IMG/VR virus record: IMGVR_UViG_3300042868_002711
Coordinates: 1 to 35,136 of that record
From: a virus
Reading direction: 5' to 3' (one strand)
Length of the DNA: 35,136 nt
The translations under genes and the position numbers were made by a program. This document shows positions 8,643-24,235 of the stretch, one piece after another (positions within the stretch are counted from its first letter, which is position 1; the number at the start of each line of letters is the position of its first letter). The notes beneath the pieces are model-generated. The model ran no database searches, was not told the origin of the DNA, and saw only the letters and a program-made list of their open reading frames with translations.

Positions 8643-8965
8643 GCGACATAACAGAAGCTAGACTTCAATCAGATTGCTTCTTGTGGCATTGGAACACTCG
8701 ACCGAATGAACGGGGGTTGCTTTTCATGGTTCACAACGCCCCAAAGAACGCGATTGACGGGGCGAGGCTTAAAGCAATGGGGATGGTGGCGGGAGTAAGC
8801 GACATGATCTACCTGCGCGATGGGTTGCCGCCTTTGTGCATAGAGTTAAAGCTACCCGATGGGATACAGTCAAAGGCTCAGAAAGAATGGCAGAAGGTGG
8901 CCGAATCGGTTGGATGTGAGTACGTGATCATTCGCAGCTTTGAGGAGTTTAAAGACGTTATTTAG
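8639..8965 (+). CDS. VRR-NUC domain nuclease
   Basis: A 108-aa single-domain protein of the VRR-NUC family, PD-(D/E)xK-type nucleases found in phages and in FAN1-like repair enzymes that cut branched DNA. The key pattern is present: GVSDMIYL with Asp55, then CIELKLPDG with Glu69 and Lys71, then SKAQKEWQ with Gln81. Length is typical for stand-alone phage copies. Translation is coupled to the helicase upstream (ATGA). A likely role is resolving recombination or replication intermediates together with the helicase and YqaJ nuclease. Its stop lies in TTATTTAGAAT (8958-8968), the left half of the P1-P3 palindrome. Confidence 0.88.
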   Translation: MSDITEARLQSDCFLWHWNTRPNERGLLFMVHNAPKNAIDGARLKAMGMVAGVSDMIYLRDGLPPLCIELKLPDGIQSKAQKEWQKVAESVGCEYVIIRSFEEFKDVI

Positions 8966-8966
8966 A

Positions 8967-9629
8967 ATGAAGGTAGTAGAATTATTCGCGGGAAGTAGAT
9001 GCGTAGGACGCGCGGCTGAATCTCTTGGACATGAAGTGTTCAGCGTTGACTGGCAACCGTTCGATAGTATCAATTGGGTCGGTGACATTGCAGACATGAC
9101 AACTGAATCCGTGCCGTTCATTCCTGACTTCGTTTGGGCTTCGCCAGATTGCACCACTTATACAATAGCAGCTATCAGTCACCACAGGAACGGGGCTGAA
9201 CCAAAATCAGACTACGCCAAGAAATGCGATGCGGTCAATCAACACTTCATTGCGCTAATTGACCAATGGTTAACGGTCAATCCCGACATGGTTTTCTTCA
9301 TTGAGAACCCGCGCGGAATGATGCGTAAGATGCCTTGGATGCAACGGTTCAGGCGTGAAACGGTGTGGTACTGCCAATACGGTGACGATCGGGCGAAGCC
9401 TACGGACATTTGGACAAACTCAAAGTCATGGCAACCGCGCCCAATGTGCCACAACGGAAACCCGAACTGTCACCACGAATCTGCACCACGCGGAAGCCGA
9501 ACAGGAACGCAAGGACGGAAAGGTAGTTACGACCGTAGCCGAATACCTGAACAACTATGCGTTGAGGTCTTGGAAAGCGTATCGCGTCCGATAATTCAGC
9601 TACCACAGTTCACGCTTGACCTTATTTAG
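8967..9629 (+). CDS. C5-cytosine DNA methyltransferase-like protein
   Basis: A 220-aa protein related to DNA cytosine-5 methyltransferases. Motif I is LFAGS (residues 6-10), and ENPRG at 113-117 matches the ENV motif VI. The catalytic Pro-Cys motif appears as ASPDCTTYT, with Cys62 in the expected place but Asp instead of the usual second Pro. The protein is shorter than typical 300-400-aa enzymes and I cannot place a clear target-recognition domain, so it may be a divergent modifier. No restriction enzyme is adjacent, so protection of phage DNA against host nucleases is the likely role. The ATG at 8967 is one base after the previous stop. Its own TAG stop (9627-9629) lies inside the P3 palindrome. 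Confidence 0.78.
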   Translation: MKVVELFAGSRCVGRAAESLGHEVFSVDWQPFDSINWVGDIADMTTESVPFIPDFVWASPDCTTYTIAAISHHRNGAEPKSDYAKKCDAVNQHFIALIDQWLTVNPDMVFFIENPRGMMRKMPWMQRFRRETVWYCQYGDDRAKPTDIWTNSKSWQPRPMCHNGNPNCHHESAPRGSRTGTQGRKGSYDRSRIPEQLCVEVLESVSRPIIQLPQFTLDLI

Positions 9630-9695
9630 AATCATTCTAAATTACACCCAAACGAATTATTAATTTGTCCATGTCGGAATGATGCCGTAGATTTG
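9622..9695 (+). promoter_or_regulatory. Operator/promoter cassette P3
   Basis: Third copy: palindrome at 9624-9642 (centre 9633), TTTG at 9664-9667, a 20-bp spacer and TAgaTTTG at 9688-9695. It overlaps the last codons of the methyltransferase gene. Palindrome-to-box distance is 55 bp, against 54 in P1 and P2. It drives the recombination genes from 9718, with a leader of about 18 nt. Confidence 0.87.
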
Positions 9696-11731: not shown

Positions 11732-12009
11732 AAGCCGAAACATTCACACTATTGGCGTTGACATCGTTGGTTGTTATTGTTGTCCACTTATACTCAGCAC
11801 TCACATACCATGAACCACCAATACCCCCGTGCGGTGACTTCCACAACTGCCGAATCATTCAGATAGACACGGATGGGGACTCGGCCACATACAGCGCGAT
11901 TCTGACAGACACTTGCCGACATTCGCGCCTAGTTCACTTCAAGGCCGAAGCTGATAGGTTCAATGCAGGTGACACGGCTCAGGGCAATTTCTTTGGGCAA
12001 TCAAAATAA
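11728..12009 (+). CDS. Single-pass membrane protein (93 aa)
   Basis: The frame opens at 11707, but the ATG at 11728 overlaps the previous stop (ATGA) and is preferred. After MKAETF comes a hydrophobic helix (about residues 7-25, TLLALTSLVVIVVHLYSAL), then a hydrophilic domain of about 65 residues with three cysteines (PPCGDFHNCR and DTCR) that could form disulphides outside the cytoplasm. It is either membrane-anchored or has an uncleaved signal. No family is recognised; effects on the envelope such as superinfection exclusion are conceivable. The -33 box of the next promoter lies in its final codons. Confidence 0.55.
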   Translation: MKAETFTLLALTSLVVIVVHLYSALTYHEPPIPPCGDFHNCRIIQIDTDGDSATYSAILTDTCRHSRLVHFKAEADRFNAGDTAQGNFFGQSK

Positions 12010-12022
12010 ATAATTACATTTG
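11992..12022 (+). promoter_or_regulatory. Bacteroidota-type promoter P4, near-leaderless
   Basis: TTTG at 11992-11995, a 19-bp spacer and TAcaTTTG at 12015-12022, a full match to the consensus. Transcription should begin around 12026-12028, at or right next to the ATG at 12028, so the first mRNA would have almost no leader. No P1-P3 palindrome lies upstream, so this promoter is probably regulated differently from the cassettes. Confidence 0.75.
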
Positions 12023-12533: not shown

Positions 12534-13016
12534 GTGGTTGCAGACCTTTACAACAGCCTTAGAAATGACAGAGATCTGATGACAGCGGCACAACGAATAG
12601 CGGGTAACAAATGGGAGGACGTGGTTCAGGAAATTGGAATAGTTCTGTGCAGTAAGACAGAACCCGAACTAGAGAAGATACAACCTTACTTTCGCTTTTG
12701 GTGCATTAGAACGATGACGAACATGATGAGCCGAACGGGTGCAATCGGAAGTAAGGAGGCAATGATCGACAGGAATGTTGACGTTGCATTGTTGTTCGAT
12801 GGGTTGCAAGATCATGAAGCCAACACCGACACCGAAACCGCAACTCAGGCTAACGCGATACTGGAATCCCTGCCGTGGTACGAACGAGAACTATTTAAGG
12901 AATATGCAGAACAAGGAACGCTCAGGCGCGTGTCTGCTGCAACTAAGATACCATTGATGTCTGTTCATCGAACGGTTAAAAGCGTGAAGAAAACAATCAG
13001 AAAGAAGTTAAGATGA
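12534..13016 (+). CDS. Sigma-factor-like HTH protein
   Basis: A 160-aa protein arranged like a short sigma-70 factor. An N-terminal part (WEDVVQEIGIVLCSK, about residues 25-39) resembles a region 2-like helix. A C-terminal part (LESLPWYERELFKEYAEQGTL, then RRVSAATKIPLMSVHRTVKSVKKTIRKKLR) resembles region 4 with its helix-turn-helix. The two are joined by an acidic linker. The GTG at 12534 is the first start after the previous stop; an internal ATG at 12579 is less likely because it would remove region 2-like residues. It is encoded shortly before the terminase and virion genes and is a good candidate late-gene regulator that redirects host RNA polymerase. Divergence from true sigma factors keeps the call tentative. 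Confidence 0.65.
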   Translation: MVADLYNSLRNDRDLMTAAQRIAGNKWEDVVQEIGIVLCSKTEPELEKIQPYFRFWCIRTMTNMMSRTGAIGSKEAMIDRNVDVALLFDGLQDHEANTDTETATQANAILESLPWYERELFKEYAEQGTLRRVSAATKIPLMSVHRTVKSVKKTIRKKLR

Positions 13017-13237
13017 CAATACTTGCAGGGGCATTGATGGCGGTAGTGGCAATGGCGGTGACGCAGTTCACCAAGCGGATACAGTTCAGGCCGTTCAACT
13101 GCGAGTTGTGCATGACCTTTTGGTTGTCCACTATCTTCGCGGTGTTCCACTACCTACCGACCCATTGCGTTATATTCGTTGGGATGGCATTATTCACCCG
13201 TCAAGCACTTTGGAGATTATGGCCTACGATGTTTTAA
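13013..13237 (+). CDS. Small membrane protein with CxxC (74 aa)
   Basis: The ATG overlaps the preceding TGA. Two or three hydrophobic segments are seen: residues 1-18 (TILAGALMAVVAMAVTQF), 32-48 (LCMTFWLSTIFAVFHYL) and 52-65 (CVIFVGMALFTRQA), with FNCELCMTFW between the first two. This motif recalls small membrane proteins of the DUF1360 kind, which carry a similar FNC..C..FW signature. The function is unknown. A holin role is possible, but the better candidate is at 34768-35025. Its end overlaps the next gene by 19 bases. Confidence 0.55.
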   Translation: MTILAGALMAVVAMAVTQFTKRIQFRPFNCELCMTFWLSTIFAVFHYLPTHCVIFVGMALFTRQALWRLWPTMF

Positions 13238-13449
13238 CGGACGAAGAAATGAAGTGGCTCGATGAACATAGGTCAACGATAATGCAATTTGCAAGCGGTG
13301 AGTTCGCAGGTCACGTCAGCATTGAAGATAGGTCAATGTATCACAATTTAGCACAACGGATAGTAAAATTTAATTTTATGGTATGCTGGACGTGTGGTTC
13401 AAGCATTCAGCACATCGGTAATTACATTAAAAACGGATTAGGATGGTAA
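13219..13449 (+). CDS. Small CxxC hypothetical protein (76 aa)
   Basis: The frame is open from 13108 inside the previous gene, but the ATG at 13219 (MAYDVLTDEEMKWLDEH) gives a natural start with a short overlap. The N-terminal part is acidic and helical; the C-terminal part has CWTCGSSIQHIGNYI, a CxxC that could bind zinc. It overlaps the glycosyltransferase gene by seven bases, so they are probably translated together. No family is recognised with confidence. Confidence 0.5.
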   Translation: MAYDVLTDEEMKWLDEHRSTIMQFASGEFAGHVSIEDRSMYHNLAQRIVKFNFMVCWTCGSSIQHIGNYIKNGLGW

Positions 13450-14147
13450 TATTCACACTACTTTACAACGATCACAAGATCATTGACGCAAGTCTAAATC
13501 AACTTAGAAAGACAAATGTTTTAAACTTGCCGATCATAGCGGTAGATAACAACTACCCTAACTTATCGCAGGCGCAAGTAACTCGGCTAAAGAATAAATA
13601 CAGGATTACTATCATAGGCGAAAGAGTGAACAGAGGGTTGTCAGGCGGATACAACGAACTGATCAACTCACACCCTGATATTAAACACGCTATCCTGTTC
13701 GACTGTGATAGCTACCCAATAACAAAGGGATGGGATAAGGCATTGATTGACGTTATTCAATCGCCAAAAGTGGCCTACCTGTCATTGATGTTTGACGTGG
13801 CAAAACGAGAAATGCAAGAGAGGGGGTTCAAACCGTGGTGGCATGAAAGCGGTCATGTTGTATGGAAGCCATCACAGGCTTGCGTTCAATCAATTTCGTG
13901 TGCCGACTTAGACTACCTTCGAGAAATAGGAGGCCTAAAAGAGCCAAAGAAATACTACGGAGGACTAGAGGGGGCAATGTTCAGATATTGGAATGATGAC
14001 CATCAAATAGGTTACATTGACGGGGTTTACGAAGTGCAGCACCCCGACCACTTCAAAATAGATCCTAGCTACAAGGCTTACAAATGGGCATACGCACACG
14101 AAGGATATAACGGTAGCTTTGAGGATTATCTAAAATCAAAGAAATGA
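13443..14147 (+). CDS. GT-A (family 2-like) glycosyltransferase
   Basis: A 234-aa glycosyltransferase of the GT-A fold. Features seen: the nucleotide-binding start VIFTLLYNDHKIIDASLNQL, the N-R-G-x-x-G-G-x-N segment NRGLSGGYNELI at about residues 63-74, and the acidic ILFDCDSYP at about 84-92 that stands in for the DxD motif binding the metal and nucleotide sugar. It would transfer a sugar to an acceptor that cannot be read from sequence. Directly downstream are a methyltransferase and a NeuD-like acyltransferase with ATGA overlaps. The three form a sugar-transfer and decoration set that could modify host surface glycans or virion proteins. Confidence 0.78.
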   Translation: MVIFTLLYNDHKIIDASLNQLRKTNVLNLPIIAVDNNYPNLSQAQVTRLKNKYRITIIGERVNRGLSGGYNELINSHPDIKHAILFDCDSYPITKGWDKALIDVIQSPKVAYLSLMFDVAKREMQERGFKPWWHESGHVVWKPSQACVQSISCADLDYLREIGGLKEPKKYYGGLEGAMFRYWNDDHQIGYIDGVYEVQHPDHFKIDPSYKAYKWAYAHEGYNGSFEDYLKSKK

Positions 14148-14698
14148 AAGCAACTAAAAGAAGTTTAGCAAAGTTTCAAAAGTCAGTTGAGACTATGCTC
14201 GGAGGCACGTTTCACCACCATGTTCACATATTGGCAGACCTGTTTGAAGGAGGTGATTATTTGGAGATTGGAAGTTATCAAGGCGGGTCAGCATTAGCGG
14301 CATCACAAAAGCCGTGCAGAATGACGTTAGTGGATGCAGGCATTTACAACAATGGGTGCATAGAACAGAACCTACAAGGCAAGGATTTCAGGCTACTGAT
14401 CGGTGACTCTAAACAAGTGGACTTCTATGATAGGATGTATGACCTCATCTTTATTGACGGAGATCATTCAATGGCGGGAGTGGCTGCAGATTGGAACAAC
14501 ACAAAGGGGCTGATAAAAGATGGTGGGTGCATTGCCTTTGATGACTACGGTGACACACAGTATTGCCCCGAGGTGAAGATGGCCGTTGACCAAATAGACT
14601 TTACGGGCTTTGAAGTAATTGGACAACTACCCAACATTGGGGCGTACCCGATAACCGACCTGAACAACATCTTCATAGTTAGAAAAAAAAAGGCATGA
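14144..14698 (+). CDS. Class I SAM-dependent methyltransferase
   Basis: A 184-aa methyltransferase of the Methyltransf_24 type. Motif I DYLEIGSYQGGSALAAS (about residues 38-54) binds SAM; MTLVDAG is motif II; DLIFIDGDHSMAGVAADW (about 100-117) and GGCIAFDDYGD (about 127-137) are the acidic motifs typical of sugar or small-molecule O-methyltransferases with this DGDH signature. It lies between a glycosyltransferase and a NeuD-like acyltransferase and overlaps both, so a sugar or glycan substrate is the likely target. It is distinct from the DNA methyltransferase-like gene at 8967. Confidence 0.82.
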   Translation: MKATKRSLAKFQKSVETMLGGTFHHHVHILADLFEGGDYLEIGSYQGGSALAASQKPCRMTLVDAGIYNNGCIEQNLQGKDFRLLIGDSKQVDFYDRMYDLIFIDGDHSMAGVAADWNNTKGLIKDGGCIAFDDYGDTQYCPEVKMAVDQIDFTGFEVIGQLPNIGAYPITDLNNIFIVRKKKA

Positions 14699-15288
14699 TG
14701 GAACTGGCAATAATAGGCGCGGGAGGGTTTGGACGTGAAACCCGTCAATGGGCTTTGACATCACAGCTAACTGGATTATTCCCGTACACGTTCTACGTCT
14801 CCGACCACATGGCGAAGACACCGAACCGACCGCTTTCGCAATTGGACTTTGAGCGTTCACTTGCCGTCATTGCAGTAGGTGACCCGAAAGGCAGAAAGTC
14901 AATACTCGACACGATCAGACCGCAACAGCGTTTTGCCAATGTGATACATAAGACGGCCATAATCGAAAGCAAGCACGGAAACGGTTGTATCTTCTGCCCG
15001 TATTCCGTTGTGACCGTTGACTGCACTATTGGCAACCACTTACACATGAACCTCCACAGCGACATAGGTCATGACTGCATCATTGGTGACTTCGTAACGC
15101 TTGCACCGGGTGCGCGTGTCTCAGGCAACTGCAACATAGGCAATGGCGTTTACATCGGAAGCAATGCGGTTATCCGCGAAGGAGTGACAATAGCCGCGTG
15201 GTCGATCATTGGGGCTAATTCCGTAGTTTTACAGAACATAACAGAATTAGGCACGTATGTTGGCGTACCTGCAAAGAGAATCAAATGA
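14695..15288 (+). CDS. NeuD/PglD-type sugar O- or N-acyltransferase
   Basis: A 197-aa acyltransferase of the sialic-acid O-acetyltransferase NeuD / PglD family. The N-terminal Rossmann-like part starts LAIIGAGGFGRETRQWAL, and the C-terminal half is a left-handed beta-helix built from hexapeptide repeats (IGNHLH, IGHDCI, IGDFVT, IGNGVY, IGSNAV), ending in the typical GVPAKRIK. His residues near NLHSDIGHD are in place for acetyl transfer. This enzyme class acetylates nucleotide sugars or glycan residues using acetyl-CoA. Two adjacent ATGs (14695 and 14698) are possible starts. With the two upstream genes it supports a phage glycan-decorating module, unusual in a 35-kb genome. Confidence 0.88.
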   Translation: MMELAIIGAGGFGRETRQWALTSQLTGLFPYTFYVSDHMAKTPNRPLSQLDFERSLAVIAVGDPKGRKSILDTIRPQQRFANVIHKTAIIESKHGNGCIFCPYSVVTVDCTIGNHLHMNLHSDIGHDCIIGDFVTLAPGARVSGNCNIGNGVYIGSNAVIREGVTIAAWSIIGANSVVLQNITELGTYVGVPAKRIK

Positions 15289-15482
15289 GAGCAACATTCA
15301 CAATTCAGGATGGTGAGTTTGAGGTTGACATCACAACCAAAAAGACAAGCTACAAAGCGAAAGGCACGATAGTACTGGACGAGGACGCTCAGGATGTTCG
15401 GGCAGCTATTGAAAGCCTGACGCGTATAATCATTGCCAAGTCAGACAACTACACGCAATCCAAAAGCACGTTGAACAAATGA
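15285..15482 (+). CDS. Small hypothetical protein (65 aa)
   Basis: ATGA overlap with the acyltransferase upstream and with the lipoprotein gene downstream. The N-terminal part is beta-rich (RATFTIQDGEFEVDITTKK, YKAKGTIVLD) and is followed by one helix (DVRAAIESLTRIIIAKS). It is soluble, with no motif and no recognised family. Its position in an unbroken overlap chain supports that it is expressed. Confidence 0.55.
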   Translation: MRATFTIQDGEFEVDITTKKTSYKAKGTIVLDEDAQDVRAAIESLTRIIIAKSDNYTQSKSTLNK

Positions 15483-15718
15483 GAACGACCCTACTGATAT
15501 TCGCACTTGCATTGATAGGCTGCGACAAGACCGAAACACCTTGCTGCAAGACGGTAATCAATATGACTTACCACGTATCAATGCAAGAACCATATCTTGG
15601 CGGCAAGTTTTGGCGGGCTACTTACATGGACTGTAAGAACAACATCACGAATGAAAGCGTAAGCGAATACCCATCCGATAATCCACCGTTGGCAATCGGT
15701 CAAGAAATATGTGAGTGA
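15479..15718 (+). CDS. Predicted lipoprotein (79 aa)
   Basis: The N-terminus MRTTLLIFALALIGC is a classic lipoprotein signal: a positive start, a hydrophobic core and the lipobox LIGC with Cys15 as the lipidation site. The mature part is about 65 residues with four further cysteines, including an adjacent pair (CC). Phage lipoproteins are known both as outer-membrane spanins and as superinfection-exclusion proteins that block receptors (for example T5 Llp, established for that phage). It is far from the spanin-like pair and next to glycan genes, so exclusion or surface alteration seems at least as likely as lysis. Asp at position +2 would favour inner-membrane retention in E. coli; rules in Bacteroidota differ. 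Confidence 0.65.
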   Translation: MRTTLLIFALALIGCDKTETPCCKTVINMTYHVSMQEPYLGGKFWRATYMDCKNNITNESVSEYPSDNPPLAIGQEICE

Positions 15719-15952: not shown

Positions 15953-16393
15953 ATGCACCCTACACGGATATTCAAATCACCTGATGAACTTCTCGAAGCG
16001 TGGGAACAGTATAAGACTTCACTTACGGAGGAGGCTAAGAAGTGGCCTGTAACGCAGTATGTCGGAAAGGACGGGGTGAAGATGACGGATTATCCAAAGC
16101 TACCGTTAACGCTTGAGGGTTTTTACGTTTATGGGTATCGACATTATGGAACTGTCAAGTCATACTTCATTAACGAAAGGGAACTCTACGGAGATTTTAC
16201 GACTATCTGTTCACGTATAAAGGAAGAAATACGCCACGACCAAATAACAGGTGGGCTACTTGGCAACTACAATCCAAGCATTACCCAACGTCTAAACGGA
16301 CTGACTGAGAAGACACAGACCGAAGTGACCATCGAACAAAGCCCGTTCAAATCATTGATGCTTGATGTTCCAACAAACGACAGCCCAAAGTAA
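15953..16393 (+). CDS. Terminase small subunit
   Basis: DNA-packaging protein expected to recognise the phage packaging site and load the large subunit. The 146-aa protein follows the pattern of gp3-type small terminases: RIFKSPDELLEAWEQYK at the N-terminus, LTLEGFYVYG in the centre and EEIRHDQITGGLLGNYNPS with ITQRLNGL near the C-terminus, consistent with a helical DNA-binding and oligomerising domain. It lies immediately upstream of, and overlaps by 29 bases, an unmistakable large subunit. Family assignment relies on pattern memory plus context. Confidence 0.78.
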   Translation: MHPTRIFKSPDELLEAWEQYKTSLTEEAKKWPVTQYVGKDGVKMTDYPKLPLTLEGFYVYGYRHYGTVKSYFINERELYGDFTTICSRIKEEIRHDQITGGLLGNYNPSITQRLNGLTEKTQTEVTIEQSPFKSLMLDVPTNDSPK

Positions 16394-17522
16394 GATCGCC
16401 GCACTCCGCAAGCGGGTGAGGGTAGTTCAGGGCGGCACGTCATCGAGCAAGACGTTCACCATCATTCCTATGCTGATAACCTACGCTATTCAAAGCAAGG
16501 GCGCGGAAATAAGCGTAGTTGCCGAATCAATCCCACACCTTCGCAGGGGCGCGATACGTGACTTTTTGAAGATAATGATCGACATAGGCAATTACAAAGA
16601 GGCCAATTGGAACAGAAGCACGTTAACCTACGTATTCAACAACGGCAGCTTCATTGAGTTTTTCTCAGCGGATCAAGGCGATAAGCTACGGGGTGCAAGG
16701 CGTGACGTTCTATTTGTGAATGAGGCCAATAACATCAGTTGGGATGCGTACCACCAACTGAGCATTAGAACAAGGCGGTTCATCTACATTGACTACAACC
16801 CAACGGCTGCATTTTGGGCGCACAATGAACTGATAGGCAAGCCCGACACGGACTTCGTTATCCTGACATACAAGGACAACGAGGCACTTGAACCTGCGAT
16901 AGTCAAAGAGATTGAGGCAGCAAGGGAGAAGGGCGCAACGTCAAGCTATTGGGCTAACTGGTGGAGGGTCTATGGATTGGGCGAGGTCGGTTCATTGCAG
17001 GGCGTTGTTTTCAAAGAATGGCAGCAGGTCGAATCAATGCCCACTACTTACAAATGGAAGGCTTACGGCTTGGATTGGGGGTTCACTAACGACCCGACCG
17101 CGTTCGTTGAGGTCTGCGAGTTTGATGGCAAGCTATGGTTGAATGAGGTACTTTACGAAACCAACCTGACAAACAGCGACATTGCGGCCAAGCTATCGAA
17201 TTACAAGCAATGGGAGGTCATAGCCGACAGCGCAGAACCTAAGAGTGTGGAGGATTTGAGGCGGCACGGCTTTAGAATACGGGGGTGCAAGAAGGGCGCG
17301 GACAGTATCCGTATCGGACTGGATAAGATGCAACAGATGCCACTAATGGTCACGTCAAGCAGTCTCAACTTCATCAAAGAACTACGCGGCTACATTTGGC
17401 AAGTGGACAAGAACGGAGAAACAACCAACGACCCCATAGGATCAGATCACTTGATTGACGCGGCACGGTATTGCATCATGGAAAAACTAAACGCCCGAAG
17501 CGGCACATACACAGTAAGATGA
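16365..17522 (+). CDS. Terminase large subunit
   Basis: The packaging motor (385 aa): an N-terminal ATPase and a C-terminal RNase H-like nuclease. The Walker A-like motif is GGTSSSKT (23-30); the Walker B-like segment is DVLFVNEAN with Glu120. The nuclease active site shows GLDWGFTNDPT (Asp237, Asp243), then IADSAEPKS, and a final acidic site in GSDHLIDAARY. The ATG at 16365 is used; the in-frame TTG at 16362 precedes it by one codon. Translation overlaps the small subunit. The gene ends in an ATGA overlap with a glycosyltransferase rather than the portal gene, which is unusual. Confidence 0.93.
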   Translation: MFQQTTAQSKIAALRKRVRVVQGGTSSSKTFTIIPMLITYAIQSKGAEISVVAESIPHLRRGAIRDFLKIMIDIGNYKEANWNRSTLTYVFNNGSFIEFFSADQGDKLRGARRDVLFVNEANNISWDAYHQLSIRTRRFIYIDYNPTAAFWAHNELIGKPDTDFVILTYKDNEALEPAIVKEIEAAREKGATSSYWANWWRVYGLGEVGSLQGVVFKEWQQVESMPTTYKWKAYGLDWGFTNDPTAFVEVCEFDGKLWLNEVLYETNLTNSDIAAKLSNYKQWEVIADSAEPKSVEDLRRHGFRIRGCKKGADSIRIGLDKMQQMPLMVTSSSLNFIKELRGYIWQVDKNGETTNDPIGSDHLIDAARYCIMEKLNARSGTYTVR

Positions 17523-21002: not shown

Positions 21003-23661
21003 GGTACTGATCGAGGGTAGGAGATTGGATGTGTTCGAGGGGTTTGACTTCTCGTTCAATTACGGTATTGCCGACATCCGCGACCCGAACAAACGAAGCA
21101 CGGAATACACTAAGACCATCCGCTGCCCATCAACCCCGAACAACGACCTTCTGTTCGGTCACGTTTACGATGTGAACATCAGCAACCCGTTCAACTCAGG
21201 TAGCACTAACATAGAGGTAAATTTCAACCCGAACAAGAAAGCCGAATGCAGGGTAATTGCAGACGGCATTGAGGTAATGGGTGGCGTGGTTCAATTGCGA
21301 CAGGTTACTATTGACCTGTCTCGATACACGTATGAGGTCATCTTCATAGGAAAGCTGAAGAATATATTCTCCGTTTTGGGCGATGACCAACTTAACGGAT
21401 TTGATGACAATGGATTGCCTCTAATTGACTTTAGCGACCTTGACCACATCCTATCACATACGGACGTTGAATCAAGTTGGTACAACACAACGGGCTACAC
21501 CTATCCATTAATTGACTACGGACTATCGTGGGAGTTCGATGGAGACAATAGACGCATTTATGATGTGGAGGACTTTCGGCCTGCGGTGTTTCTAAAGACC
21601 ATCGTTGATAGACTGTTTGCGTATGCCAATTATACCTATACATCCGCGTTCCTTTCGTCTCCATTATTTGAGAAGTTCATTATTCCGTGGTACTCGGAAA
21701 CCTTCACGCTGACGGAAGATCAAATAAACGAACGGCAAATGATAGCCGAATCGGATGTTGATCAAGAGGTGTTAGCAGGACTTACACCGATAATGATCCA
21801 GAACACTCAATATGGATTCAAGCGGTTAGAGTTTGAAGACTACGTTGACACTAACGGACAATGGAATCCAACAAACGACACATTTTCACCTGCATTTATC
21901 GGCTACAATGAGTTCAATGTAAACCTAAATTTCACGGTTACTAGAATACAGCCTAACGTGGTCGGTGACGTGTTGCCTGCATTGTTACAAGTGTATCGGT
22001 TAAGTGGAGGCAATACGACCATCGTTGATGCGGTTGTATTCGACATTGATATTCCAGAGAACACGGGCGGCACGGGACAAACGGCAACCACTAACTTTCA
22101 ATGGTCATCAATGCAGTCGTTAGGATTCATTGGCGATGAGTTTTGGGTAGAGATATGGTTCGAGCAATTAGCCATCACATTCATGCTTGGAGACTTCACC
22201 GTTGAAATGAACGAGGGAAGTAGGTTTTTCAATGTCGTATCGGAGCAACAGATATTTGAAGAGGCGGATGTTTACATGAATAATTTCATCCCGAACGTCA
22301 AGATGGCCGACCTTCTTCTTTCGGTGTTCAAAATGTTCAATCTTTATGTTGAGGTTGACCCGTTGGATGAAACCAATCTCATAATTGAGACACGGTTCAC
22401 ATATTATGCGGGTGGTTCGAATGTGGACTGGACGCACAAACTAGCACGGGATAAGACCATCACAATTCAACCGCTAGGGCTGCTTACTGCAAAGGAATAC
22501 ACCTATACCTACGAAGAGGATGAGGATTATTACAACCAACGCTATCAAGATTCAAAGGGCTACACATACGGCAGAAGGAAGCGGTCAATAGATAACGACT
22601 TTGTGACATCGAAGAACGTTCAAAGCATTGTATTTTCTCCGACCCCGTTAGTGAACGATGGAAACTCTTCGCGGATAATTCCAAAGATATACGATGCAGA
22701 CATTGAAGAAGGACGTAAGCCGACATCAATAAACATCAGAGTGCTTTATTATGCAGGTGTGCTACCTTCTGCGCCAACGTGGAAATACAGATACAACGCG
22801 GGAACTACCATACAACAGAAGAGCGTATATCCGTATGCAGGCCACTTAGACAATCCGATCACACCGACATTTGACCTTAACTTCGGCATACCGTCCGAAC
22901 TGTACTACACGGCCAATGGGTTCACGGGAACGCTGCAATACACGAACGCCAATCTGTTCAACCTATACCACAAAGGCTATTTGGATGAAGTGTCAGATAA
23001 GGATTCAAAGGTTATGACGGGGATGTTTCAACTAAGTGCATTGGACATCTTCAACCTGAATTTCAGGAATCAGATAATCATTGACAATTGCTACTGGAGA
23101 CTCAATAAGATAATGAATTACAACCCGTTCAGCGATGGTCTGACAAAGGTTGAACTGATAAAGGTTAGGGATGTAATACCATTCGTTGCCACCACTTTCA
23201 CCAATGGCACGGGCGGCACAGTAGGTAGTGGGTTGAATTGGGAAGATAGACCCGTGACCAATCGAACTAGCAAAACGAGCAGCAACGAACTACCCGAATT
23301 TCAAGGCACGGTCAATGGGCGATTCAATCGAGTGTCATCAGCGGCCTTCGGTTATGGCATTACAGGCAACTACAATTACATAGGTGACGGCAGCTATAAC
23401 GTGACCATCATTGGAAACAGGAACGCGGTTGTGAACGGGGCGTACAACGTGACCATAATCAACACAGAAGGCGTGACCGTTGGGCAGTCCAACGTCACGG
23501 TGTTGGATGGCGAGTTCACCTACCCGATAAGCGTAATAGACGGAGGCTTTGACATTGCACTCGACCCTAACGACCAATCATTGATAAGGGTGGTCGATGG
23601 AGGGTTCAACATAGTTCAAGCGATTAACACAACAACCTTAACAAATTTGATCAATGGCTAA
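20995..23661 (+). CDS. Large tail/baseplate protein with C-terminal beta repeats (888 aa)
   Basis: The largest virion protein. GTG at 20995 is the start that fits the overlap with the previous gene. The N-terminal part contains VFEGFDFSFNYGIADIRDPN and then KRSTEYTKTIRCP, a pattern I recall from Bacteroidota phage tail proteins. Its middle is beta-rich and acidic. The C-terminus (about residues 785-885) consists of short repeats: GNYNYIGDGSYNVTIIGNRN, AVVNGAYNVTIINTEG and VGQSNVTV, then two IDGGFDI/VDGGFNI copies. These resemble beta-helix or beta-prism tips that contact receptors. A baseplate hub or receptor-binding tail-tip role is inferred; no enzyme motif is seen. Confidence 0.7.
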   Translation: MVEVLIEGRRLDVFEGFDFSFNYGIADIRDPNKRSTEYTKTIRCPSTPNNDLLFGHVYDVNISNPFNSGSTNIEVNFNPNKKAECRVIADGIEVMGGVVQLRQVTIDLSRYTYEVIFIGKLKNIFSVLGDDQLNGFDDNGLPLIDFSDLDHILSHTDVESSWYNTTGYTYPLIDYGLSWEFDGDNRRIYDVEDFRPAVFLKTIVDRLFAYANYTYTSAFLSSPLFEKFIIPWYSETFTLTEDQINERQMIAESDVDQEVLAGLTPIMIQNTQYGFKRLEFEDYVDTNGQWNPTNDTFSPAFIGYNEFNVNLNFTVTRIQPNVVGDVLPALLQVYRLSGGNTTIVDAVVFDIDIPENTGGTGQTATTNFQWSSMQSLGFIGDEFWVEIWFEQLAITFMLGDFTVEMNEGSRFFNVVSEQQIFEEADVYMNNFIPNVKMADLLLSVFKMFNLYVEVDPLDETNLIIETRFTYYAGGSNVDWTHKLARDKTITIQPLGLLTAKEYTYTYEEDEDYYNQRYQDSKGYTYGRRKRSIDNDFVTSKNVQSIVFSPTPLVNDGNSSRIIPKIYDADIEEGRKPTSINIRVLYYAGVLPSAPTWKYRYNAGTTIQQKSVYPYAGHLDNPITPTFDLNFGIPSELYYTANGFTGTLQYTNANLFNLYHKGYLDEVSDKDSKVMTGMFQLSALDIFNLNFRNQIIIDNCYWRLNKIMNYNPFSDGLTKVELIKVRDVIPFVATTFTNGTGGTVGSGLNWEDRPVTNRTSKTSSNELPEFQGTVNGRFNRVSSAAFGYGITGNYNYIGDGSYNVTIIGNRNAVVNGAYNVTIINTEGVTVGQSNVTVLDGEFTYPISVIDGGFDIALDPNDQSLIRVVDGGFNIVQAINTTTLTNLING

Positions 23662-24235
23662 TACAATGAACGCGCGTCAGATAATGAAGCGCACGGCAAC
23701 GGCAAGCACTATACCAACAATTCCATCTTCGTCAGACCATACGGACGGCACATGGTTAGCTACGGATATTTACAAGGGCGAGATGTTCTACAACGAGGCG
23801 AATGATTCGCTTTGGACACGCGGCACAAATGGCATTGTTCATTTGGGAGGTCGGGCGAAGTTGGTTATACCAACGGCTCAGGTGTTGACACTTAACAGCG
23901 TTCCAGTTGCCTTCGGGTTGACCGTTCCAAGTGGGTATTATGCGCAGGTACTTGGGGCTTCGGCTTCCATCGTTTACAACAGCGCAGCCTATGCCACAAA
24001 CACGCAATTGCAATTGACAAACGGAGGCGCGGCAGCACTTGGAACGATAGGGAATAACTTTCTTGCATCGACCGTGAGCAAGACCACCACATCATATTCA
24101 CCTGAAAATCCGACCGCAGGACAAACCCAAGTGCTTACGGCCACCGATGTTTTCGTAATCGCTAGAACAGGCAACCCAACGGCAGGCGATTCAGACATCA
24201 CAGTTTACCTCACCTATGTTCTAATTAAAATATAA
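23654..24235 (+). CDS. Tail appendage structural protein (193 aa)
   Basis: A 193-aa protein overlapping the previous gene by eight bases and ending in a TAATG overlap with the tape measure gene. The centre, DIYKGEMFYNEANDSLWTRG at about residues 38-57, is the repeat-like motif (xGExFYNxxDxxLWxR) seen in many phage tail fibre proteins. The remainder is a beta-rich domain with Ala, Thr, Asn and Gly. It is probably a minor tail or fibre-like component that sits with the preceding large protein. No chaperone or enzyme motif is visible. Confidence 0.65.
   Translation: MANTMNARQIMKRTATASTIPTIPSSSDHTDGTWLATDIYKGEMFYNEANDSLWTRGTNGIVHLGGRAKLVIPTAQVLTLNSVPVAFGLTVPSGYYAQVLGASASIVYNSAAYATNTQLQLTNGGAAALGTIGNNFLASTVSKTTTSYSPENPTAGQTQVLTATDVFVIARTGNPTAGDSDITVYLTYVLIKI

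Follow-up and report, generated by a model that had tools for sequence, protein, structure and literature searches.

What a small phage does with a set of sugar-modifying enzymes encoded beside its terminase genes, and which molecule would carry the resulting sugars, are the questions raised by the locus described here. The stretch of DNA analyzed (hereafter, the window) is a viral record of 35,136 bases in which terminal repeats are absent. The original prediction was of a compact glycan-modification module, in which overlapping genes for a glycosyltransferase, a methyltransferase, and a NeuD-like acyltransferase would transfer, methylate, and acetylate a sugar and a further glycosyltransferase (GT-B) follows the terminase; virion proteins, host O-antigen, and DNA-linked sugars were offered as possible targets. 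Family matches agree with the assignment of all four open reading frames (ORFs; Table 1).

Enzymes Encoded at the Locus

The product of the first cassette gene matches the GT2 family (E = 2.6e-6; 27.9 bits against a gathering cut-off of 23.3) and contains a DxD-like motif (FDCDS), of which DCDS is invariant in four relatives. Relatives at 63–66% identity were identified in L007 and L106, and tblastn searches of 50,697 phage records yielded no match to the GT2 of the window and none to the alternative GT2 either. An AlphaFold model of GT2 based on 4 sequences (pLDDT 49) was too poor for confirmation of the fold or for a structure search, and PDB sequence searches with GT2, the methyltransferase, and GT-B returned nothing useful. 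The methyltransferase passes the cut-off of only one model, Methyltransf_24 (E = 1.8e-10), and its homolog in L106 (34%) passes those of the TylF and RMNT_CmcI sugar O-methyltransferases.

The third product matches the NeuD/PglB/VioB model over residues 4–194 (E = 1.9e-49; bit score 168, cut-off 160.8), and its closest solved relatives are VioB (7txp; 1e-27), 4m9c, and PglD. The catalytic-type histidine lies in a GHD motif, to which SHG in VioB and AHD in 4m9c align, and the N-terminal PglD_N domain (PF17836) scores 21.9 bits, just below its cut-off of 23.4, with the GAGGFGRE motif present. N-acetylated amino sugars are usually made by an aminotransferase paired with NeuD, as in PglE/PglD-like pairs. 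For this reason, and given its family and neighbors, the NeuD of the window probably N-acetylates a nucleotide-linked amino-sugar donor and thus completes an NDP-sugar. The predicted enzyme classes stand, and acetylation of an NDP-amino sugar is more likely than the acetylation of an already-transferred sugar that had been proposed. The full-length match, the aligned histidine, and an aminotransferase neighbor in relatives are shared with NeuD/PglD/VioB systems (TIGR03570; PDB 7txp, 3bss), but here the gene resides in a 35-kb phage without an aminotransferase of its own, and the amino sugar would therefore need to be supplied by the host.

The GT-B gene, which likely starts at the ATG at 17519, encodes a homolog of a glycosyltransferase family (phrog_7162; E = 4e-58) that scores 25.0 bits against Pfam Glyco_trans_1_4, just below the cut-off of 27. 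The enzyme is 29–97% identical across 15 relatives, in which the K..E donor residues are invariant, and the best PDB matches of its AlphaFold (AF2) model (pLDDT 93) are GT4-type, namely GlgM, PglA, PimB', and BshA. All four enzyme genes are kept in close and distant relatives and are under purifying selection, with an overall dN/dS of 0.05–0.13 (GT-B, 0.05–0.09; NeuD, 0.07–0.09; GT2 and methyltransferase, 0.08–0.11; TerL, for comparison, 0.02–0.07). Decayed cargo was rejected as an explanation in view of dN/dS values near 0.1.

Table 1. Coordinates of the cassette, its flanking genes, and the segments exchanged in two relatives.
Feature	Position	Strand	Basis or remark
Bacteroidota-type promoter match, TTTG-N19-TACATTTG	11992..12022	+	Consensus match
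Sigma-factor-like ORF	12534..13016	+	Upstream of cassette; conserved in G007, G009, G013, G025, and others
Small hydrophobic ORF with CxxC	13013..13237	+	Conserved beside cassette; hydropathy
113-aa ORF	13108..13449	+	Fixed left border of cassette
GT2-family (GT-A) glycosyltransferase, 234 aa	13443..14147	+	Variable cassette gene 1; PF00535
Segment replaced in L023 (GT2 and methyltransferase)	13447..14694	+	blastn homology ends at 13446, resumes at 14695
Segment replaced in L024 (GT2, methyltransferase, and acetyltransferase)	13447..15269	+	blastn homology ends at 13446, resumes at 15270
Class-I SAM O-methyltransferase (Methyltransf_24), 184 aa	14144..14698	+	Cassette gene 2; PF13578
NeuD/PglD/VioB-type left-handed beta-helix sugar acetyltransferase, 197 aa	14695..15288	+	Cassette gene 3; TIGR03570
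Terminase small subunit (TerS)	15953..16393	+	Right flank; phrog_606, 1.6e-7
Terminase large subunit (TerL)	16362..17522	+	phrog_2, 5e-36
Constant GT-B (GT4-like) glycosyltransferase, 314 aa	17519..18463	+	Directly after TerL; phrog_7162

Position Within a Probable Terminase Operon

The three cassette genes overlap, as had been predicted, by 4 nt at each junction (14147/14144 and 14698/14695); the border with the 113-aa ORF overlaps by 7 nt (13449/13443) and that following NeuD by 4 nt (15288/15285). Downstream of NeuD, a 65-aa ORF and then a 79-aa lipoprotein-like ORF continue the run such that frames overlap without a break from 12534 to 15718. Short gaps separate this run from TerS, TerL, GT-B, and a 223-aa gene, among which frames overlap again from TerL to 19131. 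No terminator match was detected on the + strand between 12205 and 19300. Because of these overlapping frames, the lack of a terminator match in that interval, and the single promoter match at 11992–12022, the cassette is probably cotranscribed with the terminase and structural genes, and the promoter match is the probable start of the unit that contains the cassette and the terminase. The −7 box of this promoter (TAnnTTTG) is retained in L022 despite base changes. The Bacteroidota promoter consensus is itself well established, and the window contains 4 matches to it when 1.06 are expected. Judging from gene order, the sugar enzymes are probably expressed late.

The host probably belongs to the Bacteroidota; a search of bacterial genomes with TerL returned a single match (43%), in a record titled Kocuria. 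Three 75-nt direct repeats (75–149, 2539–2613, and 9621–9695), each upstream of genes, comprise a 7-1-7 palindrome, TTAGAATCATTCTAA, followed by a Bacteroidota promoter (TTTG-N19/20-TAnnTTTG). The palindrome, which we take to be Fur/PerR-box-like, is also found in related phages at one copy per locus. The combination of palindrome and promoter in these repeats suggests a Bacteroidota host and a common operator.

Several neighboring genes exhibit features of their own. The sigma-factor-like ORF was recognized by reading its sequence, with no family match in domain and PHROG searches. The 74-aa hydrophobic product of the ORF at 13013–13237, just 5' of the cassette, carries an FNCELCMTFW motif and is conserved in the clade. 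The 79-aa ORF (15479–15718) has an LIGC lipobox and is 96–99% conserved across cassette swaps, and over its first 27 residues only it is weakly similar to the signal region of Cor-family exclusion proteins (E = 0.018). TerS is highly variable (74%, 55%, and 35% in L002, L004, and L008, respectively), whereas TerL is 95–99% identical in L002 and L008, and packaging specificity therefore also seems to be exchanged beside the cassette. Further downstream, a 193-aa protein of the structural region (23654–24235) is 72% identical to those of L008 and L024 among neighbors at >92%; its variable segment (about 23930–24170) is possibly a receptor- or host-facing part.

Exchange of the Cassette Among Close Relatives

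Relatives were collected using GT-B, NeuD, GT2, the methyltransferase, and TerL, and their gene orders were then compared. Within the clade of the window, the variable region is bordered on the left by the small ORFs at 13013–13449 and on the right by TerS/TerL. L023 is 91–94% identical to the window on the main aligned flanks, and homology picks up again precisely at the first codon of NeuD; L024 is 92–94% identical on aligned flanks, and homology resumes at the end of NeuD (Table 1). Both have a different GT2 in place of that of the window. Given such gene-precise breakpoints, the reading that the window, L022, L023, and L024 differ by drift alone was rejected.

Five cassette types were distinguished. 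The first, in the window and L022, comprises GT2, methyltransferase, and NeuD, and the second (L009, L023, L025, L029, L031, and L032) combines a different GT2 with a PLOD-type glycosyltransferase and NeuD. The third (L012, L014, L024, L027, L028, and L030) has the GT2 of the second type and a fusion of a PLOD-type glycosyltransferase with a methyltransferase, with an additional methyltransferase in five of its six members. A NeuD-like gene and a GT2 make up the fourth type (L033 and L040), and the fifth (L038) consists of a GT2-like gene, a sulfotransferase, an asparagine-synthase-like gene, and a second GT2-like gene. At least seven changes of cassette type are required on the TerL tree among labeled phages, and a count as low was obtained in 38 of 200 shufflings of the labels; cassette type is thus uncoupled from TerL phylogeny. 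The region from the 113-aa ORF to the terminase genes is thus a slot whose contents are exchanged as a cassette.

GT-B is found 3' of TerL in every clade member whose sequence is readable there; in two of them, a single small ORF intervenes. In relatives with TerL identity of about 60%, the pre-terminase slot harbors ParB-like, Tet_JBP, and TET-associated glycosyltransferase (TAGT) genes (L051:8864–9634 and L080:8128–8841), which likely represent a DNA-hypermodification island.

Distant Relatives Point to One Pathway

The link between GT-B and the cassette that was part of the original prediction is borne out by their co-occurrence in the clade of the window and in lineages G003 and G025. Most structural proteins of L106, from lineage G025, are only about 25–45% identical to those of the window. 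There, homologs of the methyltransferase (34%) and GT2 (66%) are fused in one 429-aa ORF (L106:4410–5699), after which come a compact DegT-type aminotransferase of 210 aa and then NeuD (56%). In L005, from lineage G003, a compact DegT gene lies 5' of NeuD and GT-B lies directly 3' of it. That the methyltransferase and GT2 are fused, and that this fusion precedes a DegT-like aminotransferase and the same NeuD, argues that the cassette genes form one pathway.

The compact DegT/DnrJ aminotransferases, at ~210 aa against a 360-position model, precede NeuD in L106 (5696–6328), in L005 (2439–3068), and in Flavobacterium phage immuto (gp172), and are possibly minimal or half-size sugar aminotransferases. 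Immuto (Immutovirus) resembles the window and its relatives in its NeuD (35%), its compact aminotransferase (62% to that of L005), and its possession of glycosyltransferases and a methyltransferase. It differs in genome size (160 kb) and in having its sugar genes in a large cluster rather than in a fixed pre-terminase slot, and blastp detected no match between its remaining sugar genes and the cassettes.

Acceptor of the Glycan

No transmembrane-like segment was detected in any of the four enzymes (maximum KD19 of 1.35 or less), and the acceptor is therefore probably cytoplasmic. GT-B lies within head modules in two distant phages, between the protease and the major capsid gene (MCP) in G025 and between a head gene and the portal in G026, and no integrase was found in 9 records. 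Mycobacteriophages of the Che8 type provide a precedent, with glycans on capsid and tail-tube proteins (Freeman et al., 2023, as cited in PMC12619734 and PMC11256854). Soluble enzymes, a structural operon, GT-B in head modules, the lack of an integrase, and this precedent favor a virion protein, which makes virion decoration the best supported of the three roles originally proposed. We place at about one in two the probability that soluble, probably late enzymes build a variable methylated or acetylated glycan on a virion protein. In such a pathway, NeuD would N-acetylate an NDP-amino sugar supplied by the host, GT-B and GT2 would add sugars one after another in the cytoplasm, O-methylation of a sugar would fall to the methyltransferase, and the finished glycan would reside on a capsid or tail protein. 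A cassette swap would then alter the outer sugars and, with them, the surface chemistry, or ‘serotype’, of the particle.

Phage-encoded glycosyltransferases are common to Che8-type mycobacteriophages and the window, and the acceptor proposed here is likewise a virion structural protein; however, the glycan and its capsid/tail-tube site were measured in the former, whereas those of the window are predicted. The window further differs in its probable origin from a Bacteroidota phage, in having NeuD in the pathway, and in the swapping of its cassette among near-identical phages. Some observations count against a virion acceptor. GT-B homologs in phages that encode TET and a TET-associated glycosyltransferase (G026 and G027) could serve DNA, and the nearest GT-B relatives in isolates, those of phapecoctaviruses, belong to a run of four glycosyltransferases beside replication rather than structural genes. 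In the run of phage nepoznato (gp052–gp055), gp053 and gp052 are GT-B homologs (35% and 31%, respectively), but the neighbors are primase/helicase and DNA methylase genes, and no methyltransferase or NeuD of the present kind accompanies them.

The role in host O-antigen modification, the chief competing reading, is possible but weaker, and we regard it as unlikely that the cassette alters precursors of Bacteroidota LPS/O-antigen, capsule, or protein O-glycans in the cytoplasm, such that sibling phages fail to adsorb (superinfection exclusion) or progeny are spared loss on debris. Rapid swapping among near-identical phages is reminiscent of serotype conversion, and NeuD/PglD, DegT, and sugar methyltransferases are typically encountered in loci for surface glycans. 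The lipoprotein-like ORF beside the cassette bears its weak Cor-family likeness, and in immuto, a related NeuD and a compact aminotransferase belong to a large glycan cluster. GtrABS/Oac O-antigen conversion is likewise a phage-borne, variable sugar modification and a possible exclusion device. Unlike GtrABS/Oac, however, the window has neither membrane components nor an integrase and its genes lie in a structural operon: no flippase, polymerase, GtrABS-type membrane glycosyltransferase, or membrane O-acyltransferase was seen, and all four enzymes look soluble. Moreover, complete modification of an abundant O-antigen during lytic infection has been judged probably futile (PMC11990801).

Least likely of the three proposed roles is DNA hypermodification, in which the glycosyltransferases, methyltransferase, and acetyltransferase would modify a base-linked sugar in phage DNA and thereby evade restriction; we consider this quite unlikely. 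In outgroup relatives, the corresponding slot is occupied by genes of the ParB-like, Tet_JBP, TET-associated glycosyltransferase, or C5-methylase kind, and the window itself encodes a C5-type DNA methyltransferase-like ORF (8940–9629; phrog_757, 5e-33). PF00145 misses this ORF, and the absence of matches to that model in relatives is thus weak evidence and was not used. Virus-encoded glycosyltransferases are, according to the citation in PMC12619734, reported to hypermodify DNA (Pyle, 2024). However, none of the 25 cassette-group records, many of them fragments, contained a Tet_JBP (PF12851) or thymidylate-synthase-like (PF00303) gene at E ≤ 1, and no enzyme that would introduce a hydroxyl group on a base was found. 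The best matches of the GT-B model are GT4 enzymes, with T4 AGT and BGT absent from the best 50 PDB matches, and the cassette genes track GT-B and not TET. Related phages of clusters 28 and 43 do have TET/TAGT islands in the same pre-terminase slot, but the group of the window is without Tet_JBP, and its slot showed no TAGT.

That these are ordinary moron cargo, unrelated host-derived sugar genes without a common pathway that are kept by chance or for metabolism, is most improbable, since although sugar enzymes are common phage accessory genes and slot content is very variable, the methyltransferase–GT2 fusion, the recurrent sets of glycosyltransferase with methyltransferase or NeuD, translational coupling, the constant GT-B, and dN/dS near 0.1 all argue otherwise.

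Implications for Phage Glycan Diversity

The enzyme families and phage virion glycosylation are already known; the new part is the swappable cassette beside a constant glycosyltransferase. In the open-licence papers searched, no description was found of a small phage in which a constant glycosyltransferase is paired with an outer-glycan cassette that is exchanged at a fixed slot. Building on the virion-protein reading, we tentatively suggest a serotype-like switching in lytic phages, probably of Bacteroidota, in which a constant core glycosyltransferase is combined with an outer-glycan cassette of two to three genes exchanged at one set position within the structural operon, such that near-identical virions would wear chemically different coats. 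If the acceptor is instead the host surface, the system would amount to serotype conversion by soluble enzymes during the lytic cycle. Because the same slot holds TET/TAGT DNA-modification genes in other relatives, a general ‘modification island’ before the terminase genes is suggested. A compact group of phages whose differences lie chiefly in their glycan genes would constitute a natural comparison set, with which the question of what a phage glycan is for becomes testable.
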